A DNA stretch of 64,000 nt, from positions 186,001 to 250,000 of the forward strand of contig NZ_LN868938.1 in NCBI RefSeq assembly GCF_001182745.1, in the 5' to 3' direction. Below, piece after piece: positions 4,901-51,302 of the stretch (position 1 is the stretch's first letter; every line of letters starts with the position of its first letter). Below the pieces are notes generated by a model that saw only the letters and a program-made list of their open reading frames with translations, was not told the DNA's origin and made no database searches. A program made the position numbers and the translations under genes. Origin of the DNA: Nocardia farcinica (GTDB lineage Bacteria > Actinomycetota > Actinomycetes > Mycobacteriales > Mycobacteriaceae).

Positions 4901-7652
4901 TCGCCATCAGCAGATTGGTGAAGGCGGTGACGATCTGCGGCAGCACCGGCGCGATCTGACGGATGGCGTCGGCCAGCGCCCTACCGATGGTCATGGCGAC
5001 CTCGGCCAGGATCGGCGCGACCTGCGCGATCACCGGCCGCATCTGGTCGGCGAACGCCGCGATCACCGGCGCGAGCGCGGTGGCCACTTCGGTGAGGGCG
5101 GGCGCGAGCGCCTGCAAGACCGCCGACAGCGATTCGGCGAACAACGGGATCAACGGGGCGACCGCGGTGACCAGGGCCGCAAACGCCTCACCGAGCGGGC
5201 CGATGGCGGGCGCGAGTGCCTGGATGGCCTGCGCCAGCGCGGAGCCGACGACGACCGCGACCTGAGCCAGCGGCTCGATCAGCGGCTGCAGCGCGTCGAG
5301 CAGGACGCCGAGCAGGCTCGCGATCACCGGCAGCACCGGCGCCAGGCCCGCGGTCAGGTCGGCGATGAAGTCGCCGAGAATCGGCATGATCAGGGTCAGC
5401 GACTGCGCGAACACCGCGCCGACCTGGCCGAGCGCGGGGGCCATCGTGACCAGGGCCTGACCCAGGGACTCCAGAAGCGGCCCGAGCGTGGGCATCACGT
5501 CCGCAGCGATCCGCGCGAGGGATACGAACAAATCACCCAGAAGCGGGCCCAGCCCTTGCAGGGCGACGGTCAGCCCGTCGAGAACATCGCCGAGCAATCC
5601 GGATTCGGCCACGAACGAGAACGCGTCTCCCAGCGCGGTACCGATGGACCCGAACGCGCGCCCGATCTGCTCGGCGAACGGAGCGCTGGCCTCCGCCATC
5701 GCTGATAGCCCCGCGAGGAACCCGTCGCTGCCCTCGCGCAGGCCACGCAGCCCGTTCGCAGCGATCGCGAACGCCGCTTGCAGCCCCTCAATACCCTCCG
5801 TCGACTTCAAGAACGCAGCGAAACCGTGCGCGCCCGCGTTCATCTCGGCCGCGACAGCGGTCATGCCGTCGCGCAGCGTGGGAAGCACCGTGTCGGCGAG
5901 CTGCCGCAGCCCCTCCCCGGCACCCTGGAACGCGGTGTCCTGGACGGACTTGCGCACCTCTTCCCACGCGGGCGCGAGCTCGCGGGCAGCGAGCACGAAA
6001 TCCTGGGCGTTGGGGGCGAGCTTGGCCATCGCCTCGGCCAGCTTCTGCGACGACGCAGTGCCCGCGGTCTGCGCTTCGGTGAGTGCAGCGGCAGCCGCAG
6101 CCACCTGCCGCTCGGCTTGCTCGGCGGCCCGGCGCGCCTGCGTGACCCGGTCCTCGGCGTCGGCGGCAGCCTTGCGCGCGGCCACCACCTTGTCGCTGTT
6201 GTCGAGGCCCTTACGTTCGGCGTCGGCGGCCTGCTCGGCGACATCGCGGCCGTCAGCGACGGCCTTGTCGTAGTTGAGTTGTGCCCGCTCGACCCGCAGC
6301 AGTGCGCGTTCCCGCTCCTGCGGTGTCTTGGCGTCGAACACGTCGCGCTGCGCGTCCTTGAGCGCGAGCGCGGCCTCTTTCTGGTCGAGGACGCTGCCGC
6401 GCAGCTTGAACTGCCAGTCCTCCAGCTCATCGGCCGCGGCCTGGTAGGCGTCTCCGATCGCGCGGGTCGCTTCCTCGGCGTCGGCTTGCGCGTCGGTGAG
6501 ATTGCGTTGCGCGTCGGCGGCGGCGTCGGCCGCCGATTGCAGCTGCTGCTGTGCTGCCGCTGTCGCCTTGGCTGCGGCGGCAGCCTCACCGGGGCCGGCT
6601 TCGGCGGCTGCTGCGGCGGCGTCGAATGCGTCCTTGACCCCGGCGAGTGCGACGGTGGCTGTGCCGACCGCCGCCGCGATTCCCGGGCCCAAGGCTGCTG
6701 CCGCCACCACGAGCCCGCCGACCGCACCGGCGGCGAGCCCGGCCGCGCCACCGATACCGGCGATGGCTGCGGCGACGGCCGCCATGCCACCGGCGCCGAT
6801 GCCGACGCTGCGCAGCGAATCCCGCAGCCGGTCGACACGCGATGCTTCGGTGTCGGCGTTGGAGTTGAACCGGAAATTCGCGTTCCCAGAACGCAATTCG
6901 CGCAGGAGGGCGGCGATGCGCTGCAACTGCGCCTCATCGACCTGGATGTCGATCTTGATCTTGACGTCCTTGTCGGACAGTCCCCGCAGACTCCGCAGCG
7001 CGGGCGCGATCTGCGTCAGCCGCTCGAGCTCCGCCGGGGACATGTCCAACTTCACCCTGACCCGGACGTCCTTGTCGGTCAGCGTCCGCAGCGACCGCAC
7101 CACCGGCCCGATCTGCTTGAGCCGCTCCAACTCGGCCGGGGACATGTCGAGGTTGACCCGCACCCGCACGCTCACATCGGTCAGGGCCTGCATCTGCCGC
7201 AGCGTCGACGCGATCGACCGCAGCCGCTTCGCGTCCGCCTCCGACATACCGAGCGCGACGTCCACGCGGATCGTCTTGTCCGGCATGGACTGGAGCTCAC
7301 GCAACGCCGCCAAGTCCGCGGCGTCGACCTGGATGTCGGTGTCGAACTTGATCGTCCGCCCCGCACCAGCGACCGCGGTTTCGATCTCGCTGATCAGCCC
7401 GGCCGAGTCGAACTCCCCGCGCACGCTGATGTGCGGGTCGGTGCGCTGGATCGCGCGCAGCTCGGATTGCAGGTCGGTCGCCAGGCTCGACCCGTCGAAC
7501 GCCGCCCGCACGCTGACGGTGAGCGGATCGATGTCGAGCTGCCGTTGCATATCGCGCATGGCGTCCACGACGACGCGCCGCAGCTCGTCATCGAATCCGC
7601 TTCCGTCAGCGGTGATGGGGATGGAGATGCCGGGCGCCGTCACGCCGCGCAC
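1950..7652 (-). CDS. Tape measure protein with internal NlpC/P60 peptidase, 1900 aa
   Basis: Largest gene of the window. Residues 1-240 hold short repeated units (DMSPAELERL and variants), followed by glycine/alanine hydrophobic stretches (about 270-330), a long coiled coil (about 340-520) and a long helical region, all typical of tape measures that set tail length. Residues about 1190-1290 form an NlpC/P60 module with the catalytic pair in DCSG (Cys about 1209) and GGHTAG (His about 1271), expected to cut cell-wall peptides during DNA entry. A second hydrophobic glycine-zipper stretch lies near residues 1770-1820. The motif DSGGxAxGxG...APERVLSP occurs twice (about 1424 and 1829). Start GTG. 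Confidence 0.93.
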   Translation of the reverse strand: MRGVTAPGISIPITADGSGFDDELRRVVVDAMRDMQRQLDIDPLTVSVRAAFDGSSLATDLQSELRAIQRTDPHISVRGEFDSAGLISEIETAVAGAGRTIKFDTDIQVDAADLAALRELQSMPDKTIRVDVALGMSEADAKRLRSIASTLRQMQALTDVSVRVRVNLDMSPAELERLKQIGPVVRSLRTLTDKDVRVRVKLDMSPAELERLTQIAPALRSLRGLSDKDVKIKIDIQVDEAQLQRIAALLRELRSGNANFRFNSNADTEASRVDRLRDSLRSVGIGAGGMAAVAAAIAGIGGAAGLAAGAVGGLVVAAAALGPGIAAAVGTATVALAGVKDAFDAAAAAAEAGPGEAAAAAKATAAAQQQLQSAADAAADAQRNLTDAQADAEEATRAIGDAYQAAADELEDWQFKLRGSVLDQKEAALALKDAQRDVFDAKTPQERERALLRVERAQLNYDKAVADGRDVAEQAADAERKGLDNSDKVVAARKAAADAEDRVTQARRAAEQAERQVAAAAAALTEAQTAGTASSQKLAEAMAKLAPNAQDFVLAARELAPAWEEVRKSVQDTAFQGAGEGLRQLADTVLPTLRDGMTAVAAEMNAGAHGFAAFLKSTEGIEGLQAAFAIAANGLRGLREGSDGFLAGLSAMAEASAPFAEQIGRAFGSIGTALGDAFSFVAESGLLGDVLDGLTVALQGLGPLLGDLFVSLARIAADVMPTLGPLLESLGQALVTMAPALGQVGAVFAQSLTLIMPILGDFIADLTAGLAPVLPVIASLLGVLLDALQPLIEPLAQVAVVVGSALAQAIQALAPAIGPLGEAFAALVTAVAPLIPLFAESLSAVLQALAPALTEVATALAPVIAAFADQMRPVIAQVAPILAEVAMTIGRALADAIRQIAPVLPQIVTAFTNLLMAILPLLPELVRLAAELLPPLLDILVELSPVLVKLIEAFTWLVQNVLIPIVMPVIRQLADEFKTAMERIGDVIRWVKDELFPSLGNAIDTVKGWFEKGVDGITGAWDRLKESAAKPVRYVVNTVWNEGLLKAWNAVRQFLPGVEPMEPVTLGFRRGGGVFGPGTGTSDSIPAWLSAGEHVVTAAEVLKAGGQNVLYAIRDMIARGIPFTWDGGRVISLLGRENLAAYGAAVRERGIGNVSPEGLFDALLPKFRDGGAVMPWMHQLARGHDFARSQHGKPYQWAGPRWVGDSFDCSGFMGSIIAAILGLNPWTRYWATSTFAGYPARGAQGLVKGLREGVGMLVGITDDPGGPGGGHTAGELRGIPELGYPTARVESDGSRGVHYGFGTPVTSFASLYGLPIGANGFFQPSTGGDTVGPSTDEQRGFVARMVAETVKRFTNPIRETMTSVIGPPPPRWKEIPPEFLTTAEDKTVEYLSGLVTNLGDTLPAAWAKARDLAGSVLDALNPFDSGGIATGTGFMPKNVIAPERVLSPEQTRLFETLVLSLQQLAGHRVVDSAPEPLTAAVFQQGIDHLARVLGVAQEPVTPELTAAMESSRAAVDETGRVLGTVRDLADRTESSQDRVLAEQFEQMQAVLGDIGQRLTSGVLMPIMESAVTSGVRFIEQWLGAAADQITASTDQTTQAVENLDTGGDATAPAPFGAPGSAFDAVTAISDAVVSVAQTAQQAFQQVAQDVANAALAQQASRVDNSRGVLGRDISGGPLVDMLVRLTGVEIEIRDTLVDTWEEIRSFRGDLVKAFDTSGRIVADTADLMQRNESSRELVISEQNRLNRELIKALLRYLMTSVVIPILSAILGVMIQLAVTAIGAAIGSIIPGIGTAIGAAIGAVVGAALAGAAAVFTSALAIGAGAAIDAFDSGGVALGKGVMVKDTIAPERVLSPRQTEAFDRLVAALEKGGNRTVNAPMTVYEGAGAGARIQNDLMSLL

Positions 7653-8346: not shown

Positions 8347-8898
8347 TCACTTCGCCAGCTGGGCGTGCGCGGTCTGCACCCACACGATCACCAGCCCCTC
8401 CGGCCCGTCCGGCACCCCGGCCCCGAGCCCTGTATTCACCGCCACGTCAGCGCGTTCGGCGTCCTTCATGGCCGCGCACAGTGCTGCGTCGATGCGCCAC
8501 GAGTCATCCCACAGCACCGCGGCGCGCTGCTCCATCTCCTGCGCGGTGCCGTCGAGCGGATGACACCGGGCGATACCGGCCTCGATGGTGACGGCCTTAC
8601 TCGTCCCGCACGTCACAGCGCCCCCGCTGCCCGTTCCGGTGGCGGCCTCGTGCGGCCAGTTCGCCGTCCGCCACCGCCGCGCCAGACGCACCCACAGGTA
8701 CGGGCCGCAGCCGCCGCAGCTGCTGTGGTCCTGCAAATCCGGATCACCGGTCAGCCAGTACGGCACCACCACCTCGCTACCGGCCAGCAGGTGCACCGTG
8801 TCCGTGCCGCCACCCAGCGGCGGCACCGCCGCAGTGGGGGAGAAGAACCCCCGCAGCCGCTCGACCGCAAGCCCGATCACCGTCACCGCCGCATCCAC
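8347..8898 (-). CDS. Head-tail module protein, 183 aa
   Basis: GTG start (MDAAVTVIGLAVERLRG) with a 4-bp gap to the stop of the upstream adaptor gene. Contains a Cys cluster SSCGGCGPYLWVRLARRW around residues 60-76 and ends VWVQTAHAQLAK. Size and place between the adaptor-like protein and the gp10-like protein suit a head-closure or neck protein. No catalytic motif; the function is inferred from context only. Confidence 0.6.
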   Translation of the reverse strand: MDAAVTVIGLAVERLRGFFSPTAAVPPLGGGTDTVHLLAGSEVVVPYWLTGDPDLQDHSSCGGCGPYLWVRLARRWRTANWPHEAATGTGSGGAVTCGTSKAVTIEAGIARCHPLDGTAQEMEQRAAVLWDDSWRIDAALCAAMKDAERADVAVNTGLGAGVPDGPEGLVIVWVQTAHAQLAK

Positions 8899-8902
8899 GC
8901 CC

Positions 8903-9643
8903 TCACCCCTCGAAATCCGGGGACGACACCGCGCCCGGCGCCGACAGCCGATGCGGATTCACCGCAGCCACCCACATGTCCACCTGCGCGATACCGGTCT
9001 GGAAGTGCTCGAACAGCACAGCGGGATCGGCCATCCTCACCGACACGCCGCGGCGGGCGATCTGCTCCACCCGCTTCGGCAGCGCGCACGCTTCCCCCCG
9101 GCACGCGCTCCAGAACTCCTTGGCCAGCAACGCCACCGCCATCCCCGCACCCGCCGGTGGCTGCTGGCCTTGCAGGTACTCCACCGTCCACGTGCCCGGC
9201 GAACCGGCGGGCCGGGTGAGGTCTTGATCGGGCCATTCCCCGACCGCCGAATACAGCCGATCACCCTCCAGCACATACGCACTGGACGGGATGACCGCGC
9301 CGTCGATGGTCACCGACGTCACCGAGCACACCGGCCCCGGCAGATGCACCACCCCCGGCCCGCCGGCCCGGCACGTCGGCCCGCACGAGCACGAGATGTT
9401 GCGCCACACACCGCCGTCGAGCTCGGGGAACCAGGACCAGCCGGGCAGGAACCAGCGCGGGCCGTCGAGGTCGCGCGGGCACGGCCGCACGATCCGCGGG
9501 CAACACCCGTATTGGCGGCCGGTGAAGCTCCACAGGACCGCGACCGCGGTGTCCACCGCCTGCTGGAGAATCGCGACGTCTTCCGGTGCTTCCACGTCCG
9601 GGAGGCACGTGTAATCCACGGGCCAGGTGCAGGGTGCCGACAT
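8903..9643 (-). CDS. Head-to-tail adaptor-like protein, 246 aa
   Basis: ATG start chosen at MSAPCTWPVDYTC; a longer frame exists but would run into the promoter and operators of the divergent island. The sequence has EAPEDVAILQQAVDTAVAVLWSF (N-terminal helix), a beta-rich middle and a C-terminal MAVALLAKEFW helix, the layout of gp6/gp15-type connector adaptors that bind the portal. Several CxC/CxxC pairs (RNISCSCGPTC) are unusual. First gene of the leftward run after the plus-strand island. Confidence 0.6.
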   Translation of the reverse strand: MSAPCTWPVDYTCLPDVEAPEDVAILQQAVDTAVAVLWSFTGRQYGCCPRIVRPCPRDLDGPRWFLPGWSWFPELDGGVWRNISCSCGPTCRAGGPGVVHLPGPVCSVTSVTIDGAVIPSSAYVLEGDRLYSAVGEWPDQDLTRPAGSPGTWTVEYLQGQQPPAGAGMAVALLAKEFWSACRGEACALPKRVEQIARRGVSVRMADPAVLFEHFQTGIAQVDMWVAAVNPHRLSAPGAVSSPDFEG

Positions 9644-9728
9644 GGGCCGGGACGGTACGAGCACGGGGTGCAACCATCTGTCTGCCCGAGAGCTGATCGC
9701 CCGCGCCCTCGGCCGCGGCAGATAAGCC

Positions 9729-9788
9729 TTGCGTATGGCGGCCATACGTGCGTATGATGTTCATACACCGAGCGGGAGATGGTCCCGC
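9729..9788 (+). promoter_or_regulatory. Promoter with two tandem 15-bp palindromic operators and leader hairpin
   Basis: -35 TTGCGT (9729-9734), 18-bp spacer, -10 TATGAT (9753-9758). GTATGGCGGCCATAC (9733-9747) overlaps the -35 and spacer; GTATGATGTTCATAC (9752-9766) covers the -10. Both are perfect palindromes with 6-bp arms (GTATGG/CCATAC and GTATGA/TCATAC), 19 bp centre to centre, so one dimeric repressor could cover the promoter twice. A hairpin GCGGGA-GATGG-TCCCGC (9772-9788) follows near the expected transcript start. Confidence 0.75.
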
Positions 9789-9811
9789 ACCCGAGAACCG
9801 GAGGACTCGCC

Positions 9812-10363
9812 ATGTACTACCTTGCCGAAAAGCGCGTCGCGGAGCTGCTGGAGCTGGGCGTCGACATCGACACCATCGTCGCCAAGACCGGCGTCACCAA
9901 GCTCAGCGACGGCTGGCACGCGCAGAACCGCCGCGGCGACGACGCACTCGACGCGCTGCTCGCCGAAGCCCACGAGCGCAAGGCCCTGCTCGACCGCATC
10001 GAGTTCTTGGCTGTGGCCATCGGCGAGGACGGACCCGCCCGCCGCGCCGGCGCCGACGCCAAGAACCCGACCTTGGACGGGCTGCGCGCGGTCATCGCCG
10101 GTGTCGAGAAGTACGCCCGCGCCAAGAACATCGACATCCGCACCGACGCGGAGAAGGCCGCCCCCGAACCCACCGCCACCCCCAGGCAGATCTACTACAT
10201 CACCAGCCTGCTGGAGGGTCGCGCCGCCGCGGGTGAGGGTGGCGGGTTCTTCTCCACCAAGGGCCTCTACCGCGGCGACGGCAGCGTCGACCGCGACGCC
10301 GTCGCCGCCCTGACCCGCAAGCAGGCCTCCGCCCTCATCGACAGCCTGCGCGGCACCTACTGA
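9812..10363 (+). CDS. DUF3072-like protein, first gene of plus-strand island, 183 aa
   Basis: ATG preceded by CCGGAGGACTCGCC. The N-terminus (AEKRVAELLELGVDIDTIVAKTGV) looks like a helical, HTH-type segment. The C-terminal 60 residues (TPRQIYYITSLLEGR, then LTRKQASALIDSL) resemble the short DUF3072 fold seen in actinobacterial and phage proteins. No enzyme motif. Transcribed against the surrounding virion genes, from a promoter masked by tandem operators, as expected for a gene expressed in the lysogen or very early. Exact role unknown. Confidence 0.75.
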   Translation: MYYLAEKRVAELLELGVDIDTIVAKTGVTKLSDGWHAQNRRGDDALDALLAEAHERKALLDRIEFLAVAIGEDGPARRAGADAKNPTLDGLRAVIAGVEKYARAKNIDIRTDAEKAAPEPTATPRQIYYITSLLEGRAAAGEGGGFFSTKGLYRGDGSVDRDAVAALTRKQASALIDSLRGTY

Positions 10364-10375
10364 CCACCTCCCACC

Positions 10376-10398
10376 GGGCCGCGCACCGAGCGCGGCCC
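10376..10398 (+). terminator. GC-rich hairpin between island genes
   Basis: GGGCCGCGC (10376-10384) pairs with GCGCGGCCC (10390-10398), nine perfect base pairs with a short loop. There is no T-tract, so it may be a partial terminator or an mRNA stability element between the first and second island genes. Confidence 0.5.
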
Positions 10399-10421
10399 GG
10401 TCCCATCATCGAGAGGACGCC

Positions 10422-10874
10422 ATGTCCACACACCGCGACCCCGGCCAATACTGGTGGGTCGGCGTCGACACCGACCGGCTGCTGTCGCTGACCGGCTGGA
10501 TCGGCGACACCCCGGAGGGCCAAGCCGCTTTTCTGCTGCTCTACCCCCACGCGATGGACGCCGCCGCACGGATGCGCAAGCTCGCCGAAGTGCTGGAGCT
10601 GGCACCTGGACCCACGAGCCCGCCCCCAGACACCCACCAGGTCGACGCGGTCATCGACGGCGACCGGCTCACCCTGCGCCTGCCCGGCTTGCAGGTCAGC
10701 ATCCCGATCCACGCCGACTACGCCGCCGCAGCAGCCCGCGGCTGGGGCGTGCTCGTCATCGGCCAGGACGGCTGGGACGGACGCTGGTCCGGCATCGACA
10801 CCTACCTGTCACGGCGCGGCTTCACCCGTATCCACCACGGCCGCATCGTCATCCACCCGGGAGACCCGACATGA
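10422..10874 (+). CDS. Hypothetical protein of plus-strand island, 150 aa
   Basis: ATG at MSTHRDPGQYWWVG with GAGAGGACGCC upstream. Small soluble protein with a predicted alpha/beta character; WWVGVDTDRLLSLTGWIGDTPEG at the N-terminus and TYLSRRGFTRIHHGRIV at the C-terminus. No recognised domain. Its stop overlaps the start of the next gene by ATGA, so the two are translationally coupled. Small uncharacterised proteins next to an HTH gene and palindromic operators are typical of anti-CRISPR operons, but nothing in its own sequence proves that. Confidence 0.75.
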   Translation: MSTHRDPGQYWWVGVDTDRLLSLTGWIGDTPEGQAAFLLLYPHAMDAAARMRKLAEVLELAPGPTSPPPDTHQVDAVIDGDRLTLRLPGLQVSIPIHADYAAAAARGWGVLVIGQDGWDGRWSGIDTYLSRRGFTRIHHGRIVIHPGDPT

Positions 10875-11473
10875 CCACCGACGCCACCACGACAGCAGCC
10901 GCAGCCGCACGCATCCGGGCGGCCCGCGACGCAGCCGGTGCCGCACAGGCGGCTTTCGAGCAGGCCATCCGCGACGAGGTCGCCGCCGACCGCATCACAC
11001 CCTCCGACGTTGCCCGCGCGCTTGGCACGAAGAACCGGCAGCGCGTCTACGCGATACTCGGCCGCGGCGACGATGGCGCGGCACCCACCAATCCGCCCCT
11101 GCGCCCGGTCGTGTACCTTCGCGGCGCCGGCCGCCCCGACGCCGTGTGGACCCGGGTCCGGGAAGCCATGTGGGCGCGTGGCTGGACGACCATCAGTGAC
11201 CGCACCAGCGCATGGCACCTGGCGCGCGGCGGAACTCCCGTGGTCCTCTGCGATTTCAGCGCGGACCTCGACCACCCCAGCCCAGCACCCGGCGGTGGCA
11301 CATGGTTCGGCTACGACCGATACGTCGTCGTGGGCAAGGTCCGCGCCAAATACGGTGACGACGGCGAGGCGATGCTGCCGCGCATCAACGGCTGCGAGCA
11401 CCCGATCCGCCTCGGTGACGATGTTGACGAGCACGCCCTGGCCCGATGGGTAGCGGAAGCCTTCGCCGACTGA
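10871..11473 (+). CDS. HTH-domain protein upstream of the CRISPR-repeat-like RNA, 200 aa
   Basis: ATG overlaps the previous stop. Residues about 35-65 (ITPSDVARALGTKNRQRVYAIL) read as a helix-turn-helix; the C-terminal 125 residues (VYLRGAGRPDAVWTRVREAMW... DEHALARWVAEAF) form a separate compact domain resembling HTH-linked actinophage proteins of unknown function. It could bind the twin palindromes at 9733-9766 and autoregulate the island. The promoter of the following RNA overlaps its last codons. Regulator assignment is inference. Confidence 0.75.
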   Translation: MTTDATTTAAAAARIRAARDAAGAAQAAFEQAIRDEVAADRITPSDVARALGTKNRQRVYAILGRGDDGAAPTNPPLRPVVYLRGAGRPDAVWTRVREAMWARGWTTISDRTSAWHLARGGTPVVLCDFSADLDHPSPAPGGGTWFGYDRYVVVGKVRAKYGDDGEAMLPRINGCEHPIRLGDDVDEHALARWVAEAFAD

Positions 11474-11479
11474 TATCGT
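11451..11479 (+). promoter_or_regulatory. Promoter for the CRISPR-repeat-like RNA
   Basis: TAGCGG (11451-11456), exactly 17 bp, then TATCGT (11474-11479). The -10 is identical to the -10 of two other promoters of this prophage (34827-34832 and 42709-42714 region, minus strand). Transcription would start near 11486, within the first bases of the first repeat. It overlaps the 3' end of the preceding gene. The -35 is a weak match. Confidence 0.5.
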
Positions 11480-11484
11480 CTGCC

Positions 11485-11619
11485 GTGGTCCCCGCGGTGC
11501 GGGGATGACCCCCGTTCTGCCTTTGCACTGCAATTTGAACGGGTGTACACCCTCCCCGCGCACGCGGGGATGAGCCAAGTCTGGTTCTAGACCCTCCCCG
11601 CGCTGGCGGGGTGTGAAGA
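11485..11619 (+). ncRNA. Three type I-E CRISPR-repeat-like hairpins, candidate repeat-mimic RNA
   Basis: Repeat-like units at 11485-11513, 11549-11577 and 11591-11619. The middle one has the core CTCCCCGCGCACGCGGGG then ATGAGCC, i.e. the stem plus the 5'-handle-like tail of actinobacterial type I-E repeats. The first keeps CCCCGC-GGT-GCGGGG with ATGACC; the third keeps the stem CCCCGC-GCTG-GCGGGG but has a degraded tail. The intervals are 35 and 13 nt, not the regular 32-33 of a true array, and the 35-nt one itself folds (CCCGTTC with GAACGGG). No cas gene is present. Most like the solitary repeat units (Racr-type RNA anti-CRISPRs) described in phages. Confidence 0.55.
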
Positions 11620-11645
11620 CCCCGGCACTTCGGTGCCGGGGTCTT
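11616..11645 (+). terminator. Strong UUCG-tetraloop terminator after the repeat-like RNA
   Basis: AAGACCCCGGCAC (11616-11628) pairs perfectly with GTGCCGGGGTCTT (11633-11645) around a C(TTCG)G tetraloop, followed by a pyrimidine-rich tail. Thirteen base pairs make this one of the most stable hairpins in the window; it ends a transcript of about 160 nt starting near 11486. Confidence 0.85.
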
Positions 11646-11704
11646 CCTTCCTTCTGTCACCCACTTGCACCACTCGACATGTGTGTGCCGAGCAGGCCCG
11701 CAAG

Positions 11705-11836
11705 ATGTGCGAGCAGGACGTGACCGCGCAGATCATCGACGCCGCCGAGGACCGGCGCGCCGCGCTGACCGCCGAGCGGGACCGCCTGCTGGCCCGGCTC
11801 GCCGAAATCGACACCGAACTCGCCGAACTCGCCTGA
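11705..11836 (+). CDS. Small helical protein, 43 aa
   Basis: From MCEQDVTAQIIDAAEDRR to LAEIDTELAELA, a single amphipathic coiled-coil helix. Upstream there is TTGCAC (11664-11669) followed by a spacer ending GTGTGTG, as in the prophage promoter family, but the -10 is lost (CCGAGC), so this is a decayed copy. A GTG 24 bases upstream is an alternative start. Last gene of the plus-strand island. Confidence 0.5.
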   Translation: MCEQDVTAQIIDAAEDRRAALTAERDRLLARLAEIDTELAELA

Positions 11837-11849
11837 CCCCCCGGACACG

Positions 11850-11883
11850 GACAGCCCCGCCACCACACGGTGCCGGGGCTGTC
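11850..11883. terminator. Hairpin between converging genes
   Basis: GACAGCCCCG (11850-11859) and CGGGGCTGTC (11874-11883) form a 10-bp stem between the end of the plus-strand island and the end of the leftward structural gene at 11897; it can serve both strands. Confidence 0.65.
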
Positions 11884-11896
11884 TCCGTCGACAGGC

Positions 11897-12292
11897 TCAG
11901 GCCCCGCCGGTGACGCTCACGTGCACGTCCACCCCGGCCACGCCCACACCCGCCCCGTCGAGCACCCGCACCACCGCGCCCGTGCTCGACACCGACTCCA
12001 CCACCACCGAATACGCCACCACCCCAGCCGGGACCGCTGACACCACCGGCACCGCCAGCTCGGGGAACGCCACCGCCGCACGGCCGTCCTGCCCGGTGGT
12101 GGCCACAGCGGCGTGCACGCGCGGTAGACACGCCTCGAACGCGGCGAAGGTGGTCACCTTCAGCTCGGCGTAGGGCACCGGCGGCGGTTCCCAATCCGGG
12201 TAGATCAGCCGGTATTCCTCGATGTTGCGGGCGGTGATCATCTGCTCGATCAGCTCCACCAGCTCCTCGAACTGGGGCATGGTCAGCGACAA
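11897..12292 (-). CDS. Virion-associated protein, 131 aa
   Basis: TTG start chosen because AGGAGG lies five to six bases upstream; an in-frame ATG four codons later is the alternative. N-terminus is helical (MPQFEELVELIEQMI), C-terminus is a beta-rich, Ig-like stretch (VVRVLDGAGVGVAGVDVHVSVTGG) like carbohydrate-binding or appendage domains on phage fibres. Last gene of the leftward run before the opposite-strand island. Confidence 0.6.
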   Translation of the reverse strand: MSLTMPQFEELVELIEQMITARNIEEYRLIYPDWEPPPVPYAELKVTTFAAFEACLPRVHAAVATTGQDGRAAVAFPELAVPVVSAVPAGVVAYSVVVESVSSTGAVVRVLDGAGVGVAGVDVHVSVTGGA

Positions 12293-12301
12293 CGGATCCT
12301 C

Positions 12302-13006
12302 CTAGACGGTGAGGTCGCGGGCGCGGACCTGCGACAAGGCCGACGAATACTGGTTCTGCAAGAAGTTCGGGAAGTTCGCCTCGGCGCCGATGAACCAGCG
12401 CCGCCGAAAGACGTCTCCCGCCGGCACCACACCGGCTGTGTCGTCCCAGGTGAGGGAGGGTGCGCCGTTGATCAGCAGCGTGAACATGCTCTGGGTCGCG
12501 CTGTACATGCGTCGCCGGAAGGTGATCGTCGCGGTGGTGGTGGAGGCGGTCCCGGTCGTGGCCCGCGTGGTCTGCCCCGTCAAGTTCGTCGCGGTCCCCG
12601 GAGCCGGTATCGAGGAGGACTCCCAGGTCATGATGCGGGTGCCGCCAGCGGGGCCGGTCGTGCGCGATGTCGTCGCGTACACCAGCACCATGCCGGGGCC
12701 GGGCCCGTCCTCGAGCATGCCGACGCCGAAGCTGGTGAAATTGGCGACCGACCCGGTGCCGACCGGCGGCTGTATCGGTACCTCCAGCTCCCAATTGTCG
12801 GTGAAAAGGCGGCCACCGTAGTCGCCGACATAGGTCTCCCACGACCCGGTGCGCGCGGTGTTGCTGGGTAGCGGCCGGGACTGGGCCCGGTTCGTGGCCA
12901 CGACCAGATTCCCGAACTCGGGCCGCCACGCAGGGCCCAGGTCGGCACTGTCGGGACGGTCGAACGTGTCGCGGTAGTCGGCCAGCGCGGGCGGCCCGGT
13001 GATCAT
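12302..13006 (-). CDS. Tail appendage-like beta-rich protein, 234 aa
   Basis: ATG overlaps the stop of the upstream gene (ATGA). Starts with DYRDTFDRPDSADLGPAW, a phrase common at the N-terminus of phage appendage domains with a jelly-roll/LamG-like fold, then a Thr/Ser-rich beta region and WFIGAEANFPNFLQN near the end. Likely a surface or receptor-related virion protein. No enzyme motif; assigned from composition and context. Confidence 0.55.
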   Translation of the reverse strand: MITGPPALADYRDTFDRPDSADLGPAWRPEFGNLVVATNRAQSRPLPSNTARTGSWETYVGDYGGRLFTDNWELEVPIQPPVGTGSVANFTSFGVGMLEDGPGPGMVLVYATTSRTTGPAGGTRIMTWESSSIPAPGTATNLTGQTTRATTGTASTTTATITFRRRMYSATQSMFTLLINGAPSLTWDDTAGVVPAGDVFRRRWFIGAEANFPNFLQNQYSSALSQVRARDLTV

Positions 13007-14711: not shown

Positions 14712-15830
14712 TCAGTAGATGCCGCCCTGCTGCGTCTCCACCACGGTGACACCGGGGTTGGTGCCGCCGGTGAGGTTGTCGGTACCGACCAGCAGCGGCA
14801 GGTTCATCCCGGCCAGCGCGCCGACGAACGTCACCGTGTACGGGCCGCCCGCCGAGCCGGTGACGGTGACGTTGTCCTCACCGATGGACGGCAGCGCCTC
14901 CAACGCGGCCTGCACCGCGGTCGGGGTCGCGTCGAACGGCAGCGCGGTGGTGCTGTCGGCCTGGAACGCCAGGTTGAACGTCCCACCGGTCGGCGTGCCG
15001 GTGAGGGTGACGGTCTGAATCTCGTTGGTGCCGACCGCATCGCAGGGCGGCTGCGACGGCGCGATCGGTGCGGCGGTCTCCCCGTAGTAGGGGCTGGGCA
15101 GCACCAGCGGGCACGCGCCATCGGTCGGCTCCGGCGGCGCGATCGTGGTCTCGAAAATGCGCAGGTGCTGGCCCGGCTTCATGGGCGCGAGCATGCGGCC
15201 CGCCGTGTTGGACGAGTCGATCGCGACCACGTTGTACGGGCCGCGACCCCACCGCACCGGCGACGACGTGCGACCGGTCAGCGAGAACGTCGACACCTGC
15301 GCCCCGATCTGCAAGTCGCCCGACAGCGCGAATTCCTTCACGACACCGAGCAGGACGTACCCGTACTTGGTGATGCCGGCCCCGGCACCGCCGACGAGGA
15401 TGTCGTCGGTGGTGGGAATGTCGGTGCACTCGTCGTCCGCGCCGACACCGGTCCACAACTCGAGCGCCACACCGCGGTTGTCGGGCTGGGTCTTGCGGTC
15501 GGAGAAGCCGATCGGCTTCCCGTCGAAGCTGGTCACCAGCTCCCAGTCCAGCAGCATGTTGTAGAGCGCGGTGCTGACCTTGCACAGCTCCAGCGCGGCG
15601 TTCCACCATTTGCGCTCGGCCTTGTTGCGGTCGGCCACGCAGATCGCACCGTCGGCGTTGGTCTGCTCGATGTCCTCTGCCTCACGCATCTGCGGAGACA
15701 AGGTTGCAGTCACGAAACCGTTGGTCACGAGCCGCGAGCGCGGACCCGCCAGGGGCATACCGCAGGAGTCGACCAGGGTCGCGCGCAGCCGCTTCCCCTT
15801 CACCACGCCGAATTCGGCATCACCAGCCAC
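14712..15830 (-). CDS. Major tail protein with C-terminal Ig-like decoration domain, 372 aa
   Basis: GTG start with GAGGAG upstream. Residues 1-270 match the layout of actinophage major tail (tube) proteins (VKGKRLRATLVDSCGMPLAG; ADRNKAERKWWNAALELC). Residues about 285-372 are an added domain (NEIQTVTLTGTPTGGTFNL ... LTGGTNPGVTVVE) that also ends the capsid protein of this prophage. The tube domain should form the tail shaft; the extra domain should decorate it. Confidence 0.75.
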   Translation of the reverse strand: MAGDAEFGVVKGKRLRATLVDSCGMPLAGPRSRLVTNGFVTATLSPQMREAEDIEQTNADGAICVADRNKAERKWWNAALELCKVSTALYNMLLDWELVTSFDGKPIGFSDRKTQPDNRGVALELWTGVGADDECTDIPTTDDILVGGAGAGITKYGYVLLGVVKEFALSGDLQIGAQVSTFSLTGRTSSPVRWGRGPYNVVAIDSSNTAGRMLAPMKPGQHLRIFETTIAPPEPTDGACPLVLPSPYYGETAAPIAPSQPPCDAVGTNEIQTVTLTGTPTGGTFNLAFQADSTTALPFDATPTAVQAALEALPSIGEDNVTVTGSAGGPYTVTFVGALAGMNLPLLVGTDNLTGGTNPGVTVVETQQGGIY

Positions 15831-19950: not shown

Positions 19951-20079
19951 GTCTGTCCTCCCGTAGAGGGTCCGGTGTGTCGCCGGGAGGCCCGCAGCCA
20001 TGCCCCGATTCGCGCGGAAACGTAGATAGGTGGGGTGCAACGCCATACGATGCGAACCGGAAACGGGGGGTGAGCTGCG

Positions 20080-20118: not shown

Positions 20119-20652
20119 ATGCGGGTAGTCAGAACGGCGGCCGTGGTGGCCGCGGTGTTGGCGTTGGCGAGCTGCACAAGCAACGGGGACGACACCCCGC
20201 GCGGGGACGCGACCCCGATCATGCCGGGCACGACAGCCACGACGGCGAGCGCGGCGACGACCAGCGCGTCACCGGGGGTACTGGCACCCACCGAGACCGG
20301 GCTGAGCACCAGCACCGGCATCGAAACCATGATCGTGTCCGTCGAAGACGTGAACGGCAGGTATGGGCCGGTCACGGTGTTCACGTTCCAGCTGGTCAAC
20401 ACCGGTCAGAAGGTGTTCGAGGGCTACAACTGGCCCACCCCGACCGTCGTGTACGGTCCCGCCGGCACCCCGGCCGAGCACACCGTGTCGCTGTCGGAGG
20501 GGTACGGCGACGGTGTACAGGGCGCGATCCCGCCGGGCTCCCGCCAGACGGTGCAGCACGCCTACAAGGTGACCAAGGCCGAGCTGAATCCCGCTGTCGT
20601 CACCGTGGGTTCGCTGGTGTGGCAAGGCGATTTCGCCGCGTTCCAGCGGTAG
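20119..20652 (+). CDS. Prophage lipoprotein, 177 aa
   Basis: Signal peptide MRVVRTAAVVAAVLALASC with lipobox LASC (Cys19) predicts export and lipid anchoring outside the cell membrane. A low-complexity Thr/Ala/Ser linker (about 25-65) is followed by a folded beta-rich domain (VTVFTFQLVNTGQKVFEGYNWPTP), of the DUF4352/telomere-protecting-like immunoglobulin type. It faces against the capsid gene. Phage lipoproteins expressed from lysogens often block superinfection; that role here is inference. Confidence 0.8.
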   Translation: MRVVRTAAVVAAVLALASCTSNGDDTPRGDATPIMPGTTATTASAATTSASPGVLAPTETGLSTSTGIETMIVSVEDVNGRYGPVTVFTFQLVNTGQKVFEGYNWPTPTVVYGPAGTPAEHTVSLSEGYGDGVQGAIPPGSRQTVQHAYKVTKAELNPAVVTVGSLVWQGDFAAFQR

Positions 20653-34578: not shown

Positions 34579-34779
34579 TCAGGCGGCGGGGGCGATGAGG
34601 ACCAGGCCGATCCCCTTGCTTCCGTAGTACGCGGCCAGCTCCTCGGCCTCGACGGCGTCGAAAGTCATGATGTCGTCGCGGCCGTCGAAGAAACGGAGGG
34701 TCCAGGCGGCGGTGGTCTCGATCGCGAGCGCGGCCAGCACGGCGTCGTCGCTGGCGGGGGTGATGGTGGTGTCGTTCAT
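34579..34779 (-). CDS. Small phage protein, 66 aa
   Basis: MNDTTITPASDDAVLAALAI to LVLIAPAA; one beta-hairpin plus helix (MTFDAVEAEELAAYYGSKG). Start fixed by cassette copy 4. Function unknown. Confidence 0.75.
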   Translation of the reverse strand: MNDTTITPASDDAVLAALAIETTAAWTLRFFDGRDDIMTFDAVEAEELAAYYGSKGIGLVLIAPAA

Positions 34780-34860: not shown

Positions 34861-36450
34861 TCAGGAACCCAATCCGGACGGCATCTCACCCCAGCTACCG
34901 GTCCCGTCCGCCAACGTGACACCTCCACCGCCGGACAGCACGTCATAGGCGATCGTCGCGGCAGCCACCCGGTCGGGCTGGTGCTGACCCTCCTGCCAGC
35001 GGATCGCGTGCGCCTCCATCGTCGCCAGCCGGTGCCCGACCACCCGGCACCCGCCGGTGCCCACCGCGTGCCGCAGCCCTGCCGACCGCACCAGCGCGTT
35101 CCCGCTGGCGGTCCACGGCGTCACCAGGAACGGCGGCGCCGCGGGCACCCGCACCCCCTCGACGTGCCCCCCGCTGGCGGCGGCCTCCACCACCAGATCC
35201 TCGTACGCGCGGGCGATCATGGCCGCGTACGTCGTCGGCGCGCTGTATGCCTCGAACACCACCTCCGTCGCGCCGTAGGCCAGCGCCAGCAGGCACGCGC
35301 GCCGCGGCCACTGCACAGACGACATCTGCCCCGACGCGTCCTCGGACAGGACCACCGTGCCGTCCCCCGCGAGCCCGGCCGCGATGAGGCCGGCCTCATC
35401 GCCCTTGCCGGTCTCGGCCGGGTCGATCGCGACCAGGCGCCGGTACAAGGCCGGCTCAGCGGCGAGCCGGTAGGTGTCGAACCAGGCTTGGGAGAACAAC
35501 GCGCCGCCGAGCGGGTACGGGCTGCCGAGATACAGGGCACTCCACACGCGCGGACCCACGGCGCGTTCGATGCGCCGCCAGTCCTCGACGGTGCGCCCGC
35601 GCGCGGACACCAGCGGCTCGCCCTCGGGCCGGCCGAGCGCGTCGGGCACACCGCGGGTCGCGACGGCGGGGATGTTGATGTGCGTCCATTCCCGCTCGGC
35701 GGGGGGGAGCTTGGCGTCCTCGGCGAGCAGGAACCCCGCCAGGTCGTTTTCGTGCCAGCGGGTTTGGATCAGGATGATCGGCGCGCCCGGCGCGAGGCGG
35801 GTGGTGAGGTCACCTTGGAATCCGGCGATCACCTTGGCGCGCTCGGTGGGGGAGTCGGCGGCGGCCATGCCCTTGAGCGGGTCGTCGATGACGAGCATGT
35901 CGCAGGGGCGGCCGGTGATCGTGCCGCCCATGCCGACCGCGACGACACCGCCCCGGTGGCCCCTGATCTGCCAGTTGCCCGCGGCGAACCGGTCGCTGGC
36001 CAGCGCCAGGCCGAGGCGGTCGGGAAGCGGTACCCCGGTCAGGGGGTCGCGGGCGCCGGTGCCGTAGGCGGTGATGATGTTGCGGGCGGTCTGGGCCGCT
36101 TGCCGTGCCAGGTCTTCGGAGTAGGAGGCGAGCAGGATACGGGTGTCGGGGTTGCGCTGGAGCTGGCGCAGCACCGTCCACACCGAAACGAGTGTGCTCT
36201 TGCCCTCCTGCGGCGGGCACGTGATCAGCAGCCGCGCACCGCGGGTTGTGGTGGCCTGCTCGAGGTGTTCGGCGATCAGCTCGATCGCGGGGGTGATGTT
36301 GTATCCGGGGTCTATCTGCCGCGCGAGTTCGGCCGGGTTCGCGCACGCGGTCAGCGCGGCGCGCCGGGTCATGGCCTGTCGGGCCCAGGCGGTGAACGCC
36401 GCCCGCTGCTGCTCAGGTAGGCGGGCGGCGCGCTCCCAGATATCGGTCAC
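34861..36450 (-). CDS. terL: Terminase large subunit, 529 aa
   Basis: ATPase domain with Walker A-like PPQEGKST (residues 79-86) and Walker B MLVIDDP (185-191), then the RNase H-like nuclease domain beginning at LVAIDPAETGKGDEAGLI. Packages DNA into the procapsid. GTG start eight bases after the preceding HTH gene. Length matches actinophage TerL (about 500-560). Confidence 0.93.
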   Translation of the reverse strand: MTDIWERAARLPEQQRAAFTAWARQAMTRRAALTACANPAELARQIDPGYNITPAIELIAEHLEQATTTRGARLLITCPPQEGKSTLVSVWTVLRQLQRNPDTRILLASYSEDLARQAAQTARNIITAYGTGARDPLTGVPLPDRLGLALASDRFAAGNWQIRGHRGGVVAVGMGGTITGRPCDMLVIDDPLKGMAAADSPTERAKVIAGFQGDLTTRLAPGAPIILIQTRWHENDLAGFLLAEDAKLPPAEREWTHINIPAVATRGVPDALGRPEGEPLVSARGRTVEDWRRIERAVGPRVWSALYLGSPYPLGGALFSQAWFDTYRLAAEPALYRRLVAIDPAETGKGDEAGLIAAGLAGDGTVVLSEDASGQMSSVQWPRRACLLALAYGATEVVFEAYSAPTTYAAMIARAYEDLVVEAAASGGHVEGVRVPAAPPFLVTPWTASGNALVRSAGLRHAVGTGGCRVVGHRLATMEAHAIRWQEGQHQPDRVAAATIAYDVLSGGGGVTLADGTGSWGEMPSGLGS

Positions 36451-49746: not shown

Positions 49747-51126
49747 CTATTTTTCGGGCTGTGACATCTCACCAAGGTCGAGCAGCCCGTGGAGATTGCC
49801 CAGCGCTTTCCGCGCCAGCGCCAAGTCCACCCGCTGATACCCCCGCGTCGTCACCACCGACGCATGCCCCAGGATCGCCTGAATCACCCGCGCATCCACA
49901 CCAGCCTCCAGCAGCAGCGTCGCCGTCGTCCCCCGCATCGCATGCACATCCACCGGCTCGCTGATCCCCGCCCGCTGCTGCGCCTTCTTCCACCCCTTCC
50001 GGTCCAGCACATCCGAAATCGGCTTCACCCCCTGCCCGCGAGCGCCCTGCGCCACCCACACCAGACCCCACGGATTCGGCTGCCACGTCTCCCGATACAC
50101 CTCGAGGATCGCAGCCAGCGGCTCCGGCAACGGAATCACCCGCTGCGACGCCGAGGTCTTCGGCCGCGTCAGCGCCGCACCCCGCCACAACGGCACGTGC
50201 TCGAAACCCGCCGGGACGTCGAACCGCTTCGGGTCGTCCGGCTCGGCGCCCTTCTTCAACGGCAACCACTCCAGCTGCCACGCCAGATCCAGCGAACCAT
50301 CCTCGAGAAACACCCGATCCCACTGCAACCCCAACAGCTCACCCTGCCGGCCGCCGAGCATCAGCCCCGCCGCCCACCGGGTCACCAGCGGGTCCGGCTC
50401 ACGCAGCGCCGACAGCAGCACCGCGCGGGCCTGCTCGGAAGTCAACGCGCCGTGCGACTCCGACAACACCTGCGGCCGCGTCACCAACTCGGCCACGTTG
50501 CGGTGCGCCTTCCCCTCCGACACCGCATCACCCAACGCCGCCGAAAGCACGTTGTGCGCCTCCTCGACACTCCGCGTCGAGTACGGATGTTGCTGCCCAT
50601 TCCTCGTATACGTCGAGGACAGGATGTGCTTGTGCATGTGCCGCACATGCTGCGGCTCCAGCTGGGACAGCTTGCGCGTCCCGATCGCCGGCACGATCCG
50701 GGTTCTGATCGCGGACCGATAGGACTTGAGCACGTGGGGGCGCACCTTCCCCGGCGCGATCTCCGTACTCCAGTGCTCCAGCCACTCGGCCACAGTCAGC
50801 TGCTGATCGAGCTGCCTCATCCCCTTGGCCAGGTCGGCTTTCAGCTGCGCGAGCTTCTTCACCACGGTGGCGCGGTCCTTGGAATACACCGGCTTGGACC
50901 GCGCCCGGCCGCCCCCTGGGGGAGGCTCGAGTTCGAGCTGTCCCACCCACATGCCATCACCGCGCTGGAAAATCGACCCCTCGCCCGGCATGCGCCGCGG
51001 CTTGGGCCGCTCCCGCTCGAGCTGTTTGAGGGTGCGTTTCACCGCGGCGACCCGCTTGGTCAGCTCGGCCTTGGTGTCGGCCTCGACCACGATCGTCTCG
51101 AACCACCGGCCCTCGCGCAGCTCCAT
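49747..51126 (-). CDS. int: Tyrosine integrase, 459 aa
   Basis: ATG chosen at MELREGRWFETIVVEAD (GAGGGG upstream); a longer frame runs into the arm-type repeats. N-terminal arm-binding region (PGEGSIFQRGDGMWVGQLEL), SAM-like core-binding domain (TVAEWLEHWSTEIA), catalytic domain with Arg in GGRQGELLGLQW, Lys in RPKTSASQR, HAMRG, LGHAS and Tyr in TTRGYQRV. Inserts the phage at a tRNA gene; the remnant site lies 110 bp upstream. Confidence 0.95.
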   Translation of the reverse strand: MELREGRWFETIVVEADTKAELTKRVAAVKRTLKQLERERPKPRRMPGEGSIFQRGDGMWVGQLELEPPPGGGRARSKPVYSKDRATVVKKLAQLKADLAKGMRQLDQQLTVAEWLEHWSTEIAPGKVRPHVLKSYRSAIRTRIVPAIGTRKLSQLEPQHVRHMHKHILSSTYTRNGQQHPYSTRSVEEAHNVLSAALGDAVSEGKAHRNVAELVTRPQVLSESHGALTSEQARAVLLSALREPDPLVTRWAAGLMLGGRQGELLGLQWDRVFLEDGSLDLAWQLEWLPLKKGAEPDDPKRFDVPAGFEHVPLWRGAALTRPKTSASQRVIPLPEPLAAILEVYRETWQPNPWGLVWVAQGARGQGVKPISDVLDRKGWKKAQQRAGISEPVDVHAMRGTTATLLLEAGVDARVIQAILGHASVVTTRGYQRVDLALARKALGNLHGLLDLGEMSQPEK

Positions 51127-51138
51127 CCCGCACCCCTC

Positions 51139-51188
51139 CACTGTTGCCGAGCACTGTAGCCAAGCGGCCACTGTTGCCCACTGTTGTA
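51139..51188. repeat. Four direct repeats, candidate integrase arm sites
   Basis: CACTGTTGCC at 51139-51148 and 51169-51178, CACTGTAGCC at 51152-51161, CACTGTTGTA at 51179-51188. They sit between the integrase start and the attachment site, where arm-type sites of tyrosine integrases are found. Confidence 0.65.
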
Positions 51189-51234: not shown

Positions 51235-51302
51235 ATGGGAGGGCGCAGGAATTCCGCCTCACACGCGGAAGGTCGCTGGTTCGATCCCAGCTGGGACCAC
51301 CA
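51235..51302 (+). other. attR: 3' part of a tRNA-Val(CAC) gene
   Basis: Recognisable: D-arm end (GGGAGGGCGC), anticodon arm TCCGC-CTCACAC-GCGGA with anticodon CAC (valine), variable loop AGGTC, T-arm GCTGG-TTCGATC-CCAGC, acceptor 3' strand TGGGACC, A, CCA (51300-51302). The 5' acceptor strand expected (GGTCCCA) is absent upstream, so it is not a working tRNA. This is the scar left when the phage entered the 3' half of the tRNA; the intact copy should be at the far prophage end. Confidence 0.8.

Follow-up and report, generated by a model that had tools for sequence, protein, structure and literature searches.

The stretch of DNA analysed here (the window) comprises 64,000 nucleotides of Nocardia farcinica, corresponding to C1:186001-250000 of a 6.46-Mb host genome, and overlaps a prophage of about 58.4 kb that extends from window position -7152 to 51302 (C1:178848-237302). 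The prophage is integrated at the 3′ end of a tRNA-Val(CAC) gene, a 50-bp repeat of which forms attL at C1:178848, left of the window, and attR at 51253..51302 on the plus strand. Its integrase, a tyrosine recombinase (49747..51171, minus strand; PF00589, phrog_1), is accompanied by structural genes on the minus strand, namely those for the tape measure (1950-7652), a head-tail adaptor (8903-9745), the major tail protein (14712-15830), the major head protein (17911-20046), the portal (28320-30146) and the terminase large subunit (34861-36450). The major head and major tail proteins have a similar C-terminal domain, and both match phrog_10909, phrog_2839 and phrog_5042.

A small plus-strand operon is located amid these minus-strand structural genes. 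It is preceded by a palindromic, operator-like 15-mer, GTATGATGTTCATAC (9752..9766, plus strand), followed by a first gene at 9779..10363 with no match in PHROGs, PADLOC or NCBIfam, by gene A (10422..10874, 150 aa), with no match in PADLOC or NCBIfam, and by gene B (10871..11473, 200 aa), all on the plus strand. Gene B is the last gene and has no Pfam match; its product is predicted to consist of an N-terminal helix and a helix-turn-helix-like pair, in a structure model of low confidence (pLDDT 66). Searches of PADLOC and NCBIfam returned nothing useful for the operon genes, and the operon behind GTATGATGTTCATAC is possibly an anti-defence operon.

Just 3′ of gene B, in the intergenic segment between its stop codon and a terminator, lie three GC-rich hairpins, all on the plus strand, whose first stem C falls at 11490, 11554 and 11596, so that three repeat-like units are packed within 134 nt. 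Their stem-loops read CCCCGC-GGT-GCGGGG, CCCCGC-GCAC-GCGGGG and CCCCGC-GCTG-GCGGGG, respectively. Hairpins of the form CCCCGC-N3-4-GCGGGG occur in the 64-kb window only as these three units, and one more is present in the 40 kb of flanks examined (stretch L016). Unit 1 (11485..11511) has a 6-bp stem, a 3-nt loop and a handle-like ATGACCC, and is separated by a 37-nt interval, pseudo-spacer 1 (11512..11548), from unit 2 (11549..11576). Unit 3 (11591..11618) retains the stem and has lost the handle. All of these features are on the plus strand, as is an intrinsic terminator at 11615..11646 with 14 pairs and a TTCG loop (one found, 0.1 expected), in agreement with the UUCG-tetraloop terminator that a sequence-only reading of 11451..11645 had proposed. 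The same reading had placed a promoter, TAGCGG-17 bp-TATCGT, ahead of the first hairpin. Its -10 part holds up as an extended -10, TGATATCGT (TGNTANNNT; 11471..11479, plus strand), a putative cassette promoter whose TGA doubles as the stop codon of gene B and whose TANNNT is unique within the 80 nt preceding the cassette. Its -35, TAGCGG, does not: a scan for consensus sigma-70 promoters gave 0 sites, with no -35/-10 pair upstream of the cassette.

The hairpins had been read as resembling type I-E CRISPR repeats, and the host genome was found to encode a type I-E system with a matching repeat, including the stem and the ATGAGCC tail. Contig C2 carries seven CRISPR arrays, with 72 spacers in the stretches taken and a 61-bp period in nearly all units, together with an I-E operon that reads open for Cas3, Cse1, Cas7, Cas5e, Cas6e, Cas1 and Cas2, Cse2 being identified by Pfam. 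The host Cas6e aligns over its length with solved Cse3/TTHB192 chains, and Cas3 aligns with solved Cas3 chains. No cas gene was detected among the window proteins scanned, as the sequence-only reading had stated, and the sole Cas6e match in the host genome is on C2. The host repeat, GTGCTCCCCGCGCAYGCGGGGATGAGCC, is 28 nt long, with CAC, CAT and CGT as its commonest loop variants. Unit 2 agrees with the CAC variant at 25 of 28 positions, in an unbroken run of the last 25 bases that covers stem, loop and handle. For unit 1, 25 of 28 alignment columns are identical to a host repeat variant, and for unit 3, 19 of 29. Elsewhere in the window the host repeat matches at no more than 20 of 28 positions, and 100 first-order Markov copies of the window yield 22/28 at best. 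Similarly, a 22-mer of the host repeat, with up to one mismatch, has 85 matches in the 6.46-Mb genome, and outside the CRISPR arrays these are only unit 2 and one site with a single mismatch (C2:954941). Judged by these sequence comparisons, the match of unit 2 is more than chance.

Scans for the three-hairpin pattern revealed one viral contig, the 92-kb provirus IMG/VR 637000198_000003 (G150), and one genome contig, from Nocardia paucivorans NBRC 100373, so that only three cassettes were found in total. A covariance model built from the three had matches in 66 of 401 family genomes; the true cassettes scored 206 and 133 bits and every other match listed scored at most 50.4 bits, the low matches in the window's own genome and in N. 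paucivorans C1 coinciding with known CRISPR repeats. In a set of 24 sequences from phages, prophages and flanks, nothing but these same three loci scored above 22 bits with the model, one of them counted twice via overlapping pieces. Rfam gave 0 matches at the gathering score, and blastn of the cassette against phages gave only weak matches (E of at least 1). One of these, in Saccharomonospora phage PIS 136 (JX006077, near 15.7 kb; L036 1875-2090), is part of a regular I-E-like mini-array with four copies of the repeat ATCCGCCCCGCRCACGCGGGGATGAACC and a period of about 61 bp by eye, and was set aside as such.

These cassettes appear to travel as a module. Between G150 and the window, the cassette is identical at 115 of 122 positions (94%) and gene A at 428 of 453 nucleotide columns, as compared to 437 of 671 columns (65%) for gene B and 182 of 336 for the downstream 300 nt. 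Segments of at least 100 bp in common comprise only the operon, the cassette and two other short segments, and no terminase relative was found in the 92-kb provirus. The operon occupies 9752-11473 in the window, 10976-12710 in stretch L076 and 8646-10079 in stretch L023, in otherwise unrelated elements, and the 15-mer GTATGATGTTCATAC recurs beside the same genes in G150 and, twice and inverted, in N. paucivorans. In the latter the cassette precedes the shared operator and operon instead of following gene B, its intervals differ in sequence and its three-hairpin layout is the same; the proteins scanned on this contig include a ParA-like gene product and one weak head-protease match. Besides G150, three of the 149 other Nocardia genomes carry a gene B homologue. 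One Nocardia relative is directly followed, by eye, by a terminator-like hairpin with no cassette, a second has no cassette in the stretch examined, and of the three loci with gene B relatives in viral contigs only G150 has one. Since gene B occurs without the cassette, and the N. paucivorans cassette stands upstream of the operon, the cassette forms a module of its own, distinct from gene B and from the gene B terminator.

The unit-1 core CCCCGCGGTGCGGGGATGA is present in all three cassettes, and the handle is kept in unit 1 in three of three, in unit 2 in two of three and in unit 3 in none. Unit-to-unit spacing is 65 and 42 nt in both the window and G150 and 56 and 49 nt in N. paucivorans, as compared to 61 in the host arrays, which excludes a regular CRISPR array and bears out the earlier remark that the intervals are wrong for adaptive immunity. 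Each cassette has a sole TANNNT in its upstream 80 nt, preceded by TGN and ending 10 nt (window), 12 nt (G150) and 10 nt (N. paucivorans) before the first stem, although the window and G150 are related at the promoter and the three cases are therefore not independent; random sites in the three sources are preceded by a TANNNT at a distance of 10-12 nt with frequencies of 0.002, 0.004 and 0.008. Predicted folds also place terminator-like hairpins after unit 3 in G150 and N. paucivorans. Units 1-3 themselves have no T-runs after them, and a cluster of terminators was rejected on these grounds.

Folding predictions give a mixed picture. In an unrestricted minimum-energy fold, units 1 and 2 join in one long stem in the window and G150, and units 2 and 3 do so in N. 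paucivorans, which speaks against separate repeat hairpins. Limiting spans to 40 nt restores the individual repeat hairpins in the window, in N. paucivorans and, as regards units 1 and 2, in G150. The longer interval carries the self-complementary CCCGTTC...GAACGGG, as first noticed from the letters, and pseudo-spacer 1 is predicted to fold on itself, in the window through CCGTTC...GAACGG, at -10.5, -9.9 and -4.8 kcal/mol in the three cassettes; the mean for host spacers is -8.1, and beside these the fold is unexceptional. A further small hairpin of modest significance (11572..11587, plus strand) pairs GAGCCA of the unit-2 handle with UGGUUC of pseudo-spacer 2, the 13-nt second interval, and a hairpin of different sequence is found at this place in N. 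paucivorans. The predicted probability that the unit-2 handle pairs with the bases that follow it is 0.96, 0.91 and 0.87 in the three cassettes, values reached by 1, 7 and 11% of the 72 host crRNAs, or by 4, 8 and 19% when the host crRNAs are truncated; unit-1 handle pairing is reached by 32-65% of host crRNAs. Because the handle pairing is only modestly unusual, we take the aberrant length to be the firmer feature, and handle sequestration is offered as a suggestion.

The evidence that reaches beyond the sequence-only reading concerns the host spacers, which target the very prophage that bears the cassette. The 72 spacers were compared with 104 kb of C1, with five shuffles of each as a control. 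Spacer S6, the second from the 5′ end of its array, matches 35131..35163 (plus strand) at 32 of 32 positions, or 33 of 33 with the next base, inside the terminase large subunit gene, with the flank GGAA before the first C. Spacer S19 matches 34595..34627 (minus strand) at 30 of 32 positions, with two mismatches in the first 8 and the flank GTA, and spacer S32 matches 20353..20385 (minus strand) at 28 of 32, with the first 8 intact and the flank GGAA. The other host spacers reach at most 25 matches in the 104 kb, and shuffled spacers at most 24 among the best 25 matches listed. Over 78 sequences totalling 0.9 Mb shuffled spacers reach 25 matches at five places, for which reason weaker spacer matches of 26/32 in L026, L042 and L054 were not counted. 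The first base is C in 64 of the 72 spacers, which fits a flank-derived base and makes AA(C) the likely PAM of the host I-E system; the E. coli I-E PAM is AAG. Given these matches, including 33/33 beside an AA(C) flank, the prophage is maintained in spite of apparent I-E targeting. A perfect target that coexists with an apparently whole CRISPR system is a classic sign of inhibition, though cas genes that are silent, or a different inhibitor, would account for the coexistence as well. The S6 and S19 protospacers are also present in IMG/VR 2681813555_000004 (L038), a 27.8-kb sequence whose terminase is identical to that of the window and which, from its length, probably ends short of the cassette region.

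The mimicry, the host system, the targeting spacers and the modular conservation are computed observations, and at the level of sequence there is good support for a phage RNA cassette, conserved and self-contained, that mimics the repeat. In our judgement the best explanation, and a probable one, is that the cassette acts as an RNA anti-CRISPR, as the earlier suggestion of an RNA mimic of I-E repeats had it; the host system and the modular conservation in mobile elements both favour this. Cleavage by type I-E Cas6e falls 3′ of the stem, with a handle of 8 nt remaining. We infer that the stretch of about 160 nt would encode a small RNA that starts at the extended -10 just before the first hairpin, ends at its own terminator and carries three mimics of the host repeat. 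The hairpins would be bound by host Cas6e, with cleavage following units 1 and 2, the two that retain the ATGA handle. The resulting crRNA-like fragments would have an aberrant length, some 65 and 42 nt rather than 61 (56 and 49 in N. paucivorans), and guide parts that could fold on themselves. Such fragments would trap Cas6e and further Cascade subunits in non-functional complexes, and this sequestration would protect a prophage that is targeted by the host's own spacers. We hold only tentatively, at somewhat less than even likelihood, to the fuller version, namely that this is a multi-unit decoy, cut by Cas6e into aberrant, self-folded, handle-hidden crRNAs that would disable several Cascades, and a module that would move between unrelated actinophages together with a possibly anti-defence operon.

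Several other readings were weighed against an RNA anti-CRISPR. Repeat-like units parted by unique DNA, with handles on units 1 and 2, could be a phage-borne CRISPR mini-array from which the host I-E machinery makes real guides, against rival phages or to repress the cas promoter or a host gene; viral mini-arrays are known (PMC11656645), and the PIS 136 array is a regular four-repeat example. The spacing of 65/42 and 56/49 against 61, the missing handle of unit 3 and the lack of conservation of the pseudo-spacers in N. paucivorans all argue otherwise. So do searches for targets: pseudo-spacer 1 has no other occurrence with up to three mismatches in 150 Nocardia genomes, occurs in viral contigs solely within the G150 cassette and has no credible match among phages, and neither interval has an exact 9-nt seed match in the cas stretch (L012). 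Guides against the cas stretch or known phages were rejected for these reasons, and we regard a mini-array as quite unlikely. One exact 9-nt seed match of an interval occurs in stretch L010, at 19/37 overall, and pseudo-spacer 2 was covered by this seed comparison. A functionless, decayed fragment of a host array acquired by the phage would account for the divergence of units 1 and 3 from the repeat, and N. paucivorans retains orphan repeats of the same kind. Such a fragment would hardly stay 94% identical between otherwise unrelated phages beside a gene at 65%, or present a similar -10 position and the same odd unit 1, with its 3-nt loop, in three of three cassettes, and we give this reading very little likelihood indeed.

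The cassette might instead specify a stable-hairpin RNA that has nothing to do with CRISPR, such as a regulatory or stabilising element of the operon, its repeat likeness resulting from convergence of GC-rich hairpins. Its position 3′ of gene B in two elements would suit such a role, and of the two carriers whose host genome can be checked one has no Cas6e or Cas7 match. However, the 25-base identity includes an unpaired ATGAGCC tail that the stem does not need, gene B has relatives in two genomes without the cassette, and the N. paucivorans cassette sits upstream of the operon; we regard this reading as very unlikely. The N. paucivorans result, from a draft genome with leftover repeats only, nonetheless counts partly against an RNA anti-CRISPR. 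Cas6e is present in 36 of the 150 Nocardia genomes, and the leftover I-E repeats of N. paucivorans, few in number, form an orphan CRISPR remnant at G088:C1:20079-20628 (L071). Finally, self-targeting could be tolerated because the cas genes are silent, or through the action of a protein Acr or of a further prophage. If cas genes were silent, or the adjacent operon encoded a protein anti-CRISPR, the cassette might be a mere accessory or regulator; the operon, with its operator palindrome and helix-turn-helix-like protein, is reminiscent of acr-aca operons. The operon genes match no PADLOC or NCBIfam family, which is weak evidence against this, and the repeat mimicry would be left unexplained, making it an unlikely account.

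Prophage-borne loci for protein anti-CRISPRs have been found through self-targeting spacers. The present locus resembles them in that a prophage targeted by host spacers carries a small accessory operon with its own signals amid structural genes, and differs in that the candidate inhibitor is an RNA rather than a protein. The closest precedents for an RNA anti-CRISPR are the Racrs, solitary repeat units that include RacrIF1, RacrIE1 and RacrIE2 (PMC10651486). As described there, RacrIE1 and RacrIE2 indicate that a type I-E system can be inhibited by a repeat-mimic RNA, RacrIF1 uses its one repeat to occupy Cas6f and Cas7f, and expression of a non-targeting crRNA also lowered interference (PMC10651486). 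From the effects of RacrIF1 and of the non-targeting crRNA, a transcript with several Cas6e sites is, by analogy, a plausible inhibitor.

Racrs and the cassette alike are prophage-encoded and intergenic, mimic the repeat and hairpin of the host subtype and occur with a host system of the same subtype. A Racr also has a promoter upstream, where the cassette has a putative extended -10, conserved in position in three elements, but no consensus sigma-70 site. Units 1 and 2 each match the repeat at 25/28 with an I-E operon in the same genome, and the element is a prophage with tRNA-Val att sites. They differ in that a Racr has one mimic and the cassette three in 134 nt, and in that cassette products would keep a 5′ handle, whereas the active product of RacrIF1 lies upstream of a single stem and is without one. 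A Racr also has no full or partial repeat within 100 bp, and the cassette units do. We therefore class the cassette as working like a Racr, as a new variant and not a strict member, should the proposed mechanism hold. SRUFinder drops full matches less than 100 bp apart and units with partial matches above 70% in the 100-bp flanks (PMC10651486), and by these rules the cassette should have fallen outside its survey; 25/28 is 89%, just below its 90% cut, which applies to known repeats, the comparison here being with host repeats. The viral mini-arrays (PMC11656645) likewise have host-like repeats parted by short unique DNA, in contrast to which the cassette has irregular intervals, non-identical units and no interval target in the collections searched.

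The published survey of RNA anti-CRISPRs retained solitary repeats alone and is therefore blind to tandem decoys, which the present case shows a way to find. Among the literature matches listed, there was no multi-unit Racr and no Nocardia case. The locus would thus represent a type I-E Racr-like candidate in actinobacteria, adjoining accessory genes with a possible anti-defence role of their own, and it provides a natural test system, namely a lysogen whose I-E spacer perfectly matches its resident prophage.

Sites matching the unit-1 pattern with one mismatch were also found in six other Nocardia genomes (L027-L031, L034) and were rejected as cassettes, none having a second repeat-like hairpin within 290 nt. 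The sixth is a single I-E-repeat-like site, GTGCTCCCCGCGCTGCGGGGATGATCC (G051:C24:46423-46444, minus strand; L031), directly upstream of a gene for a small basic protein in a genome without a Cas6e match, and is possibly a solitary repeat unit, or chance. The other five share one chromosomal upstream region, where the hairpin TTCCCCGCGGCGCGGGGATGA, repeat-like but chromosomal, is conserved in G029, G030, G031, G032 and G143 (L027-L030, L034) ahead of a gene that we take to be of the coaBC/dfp type.
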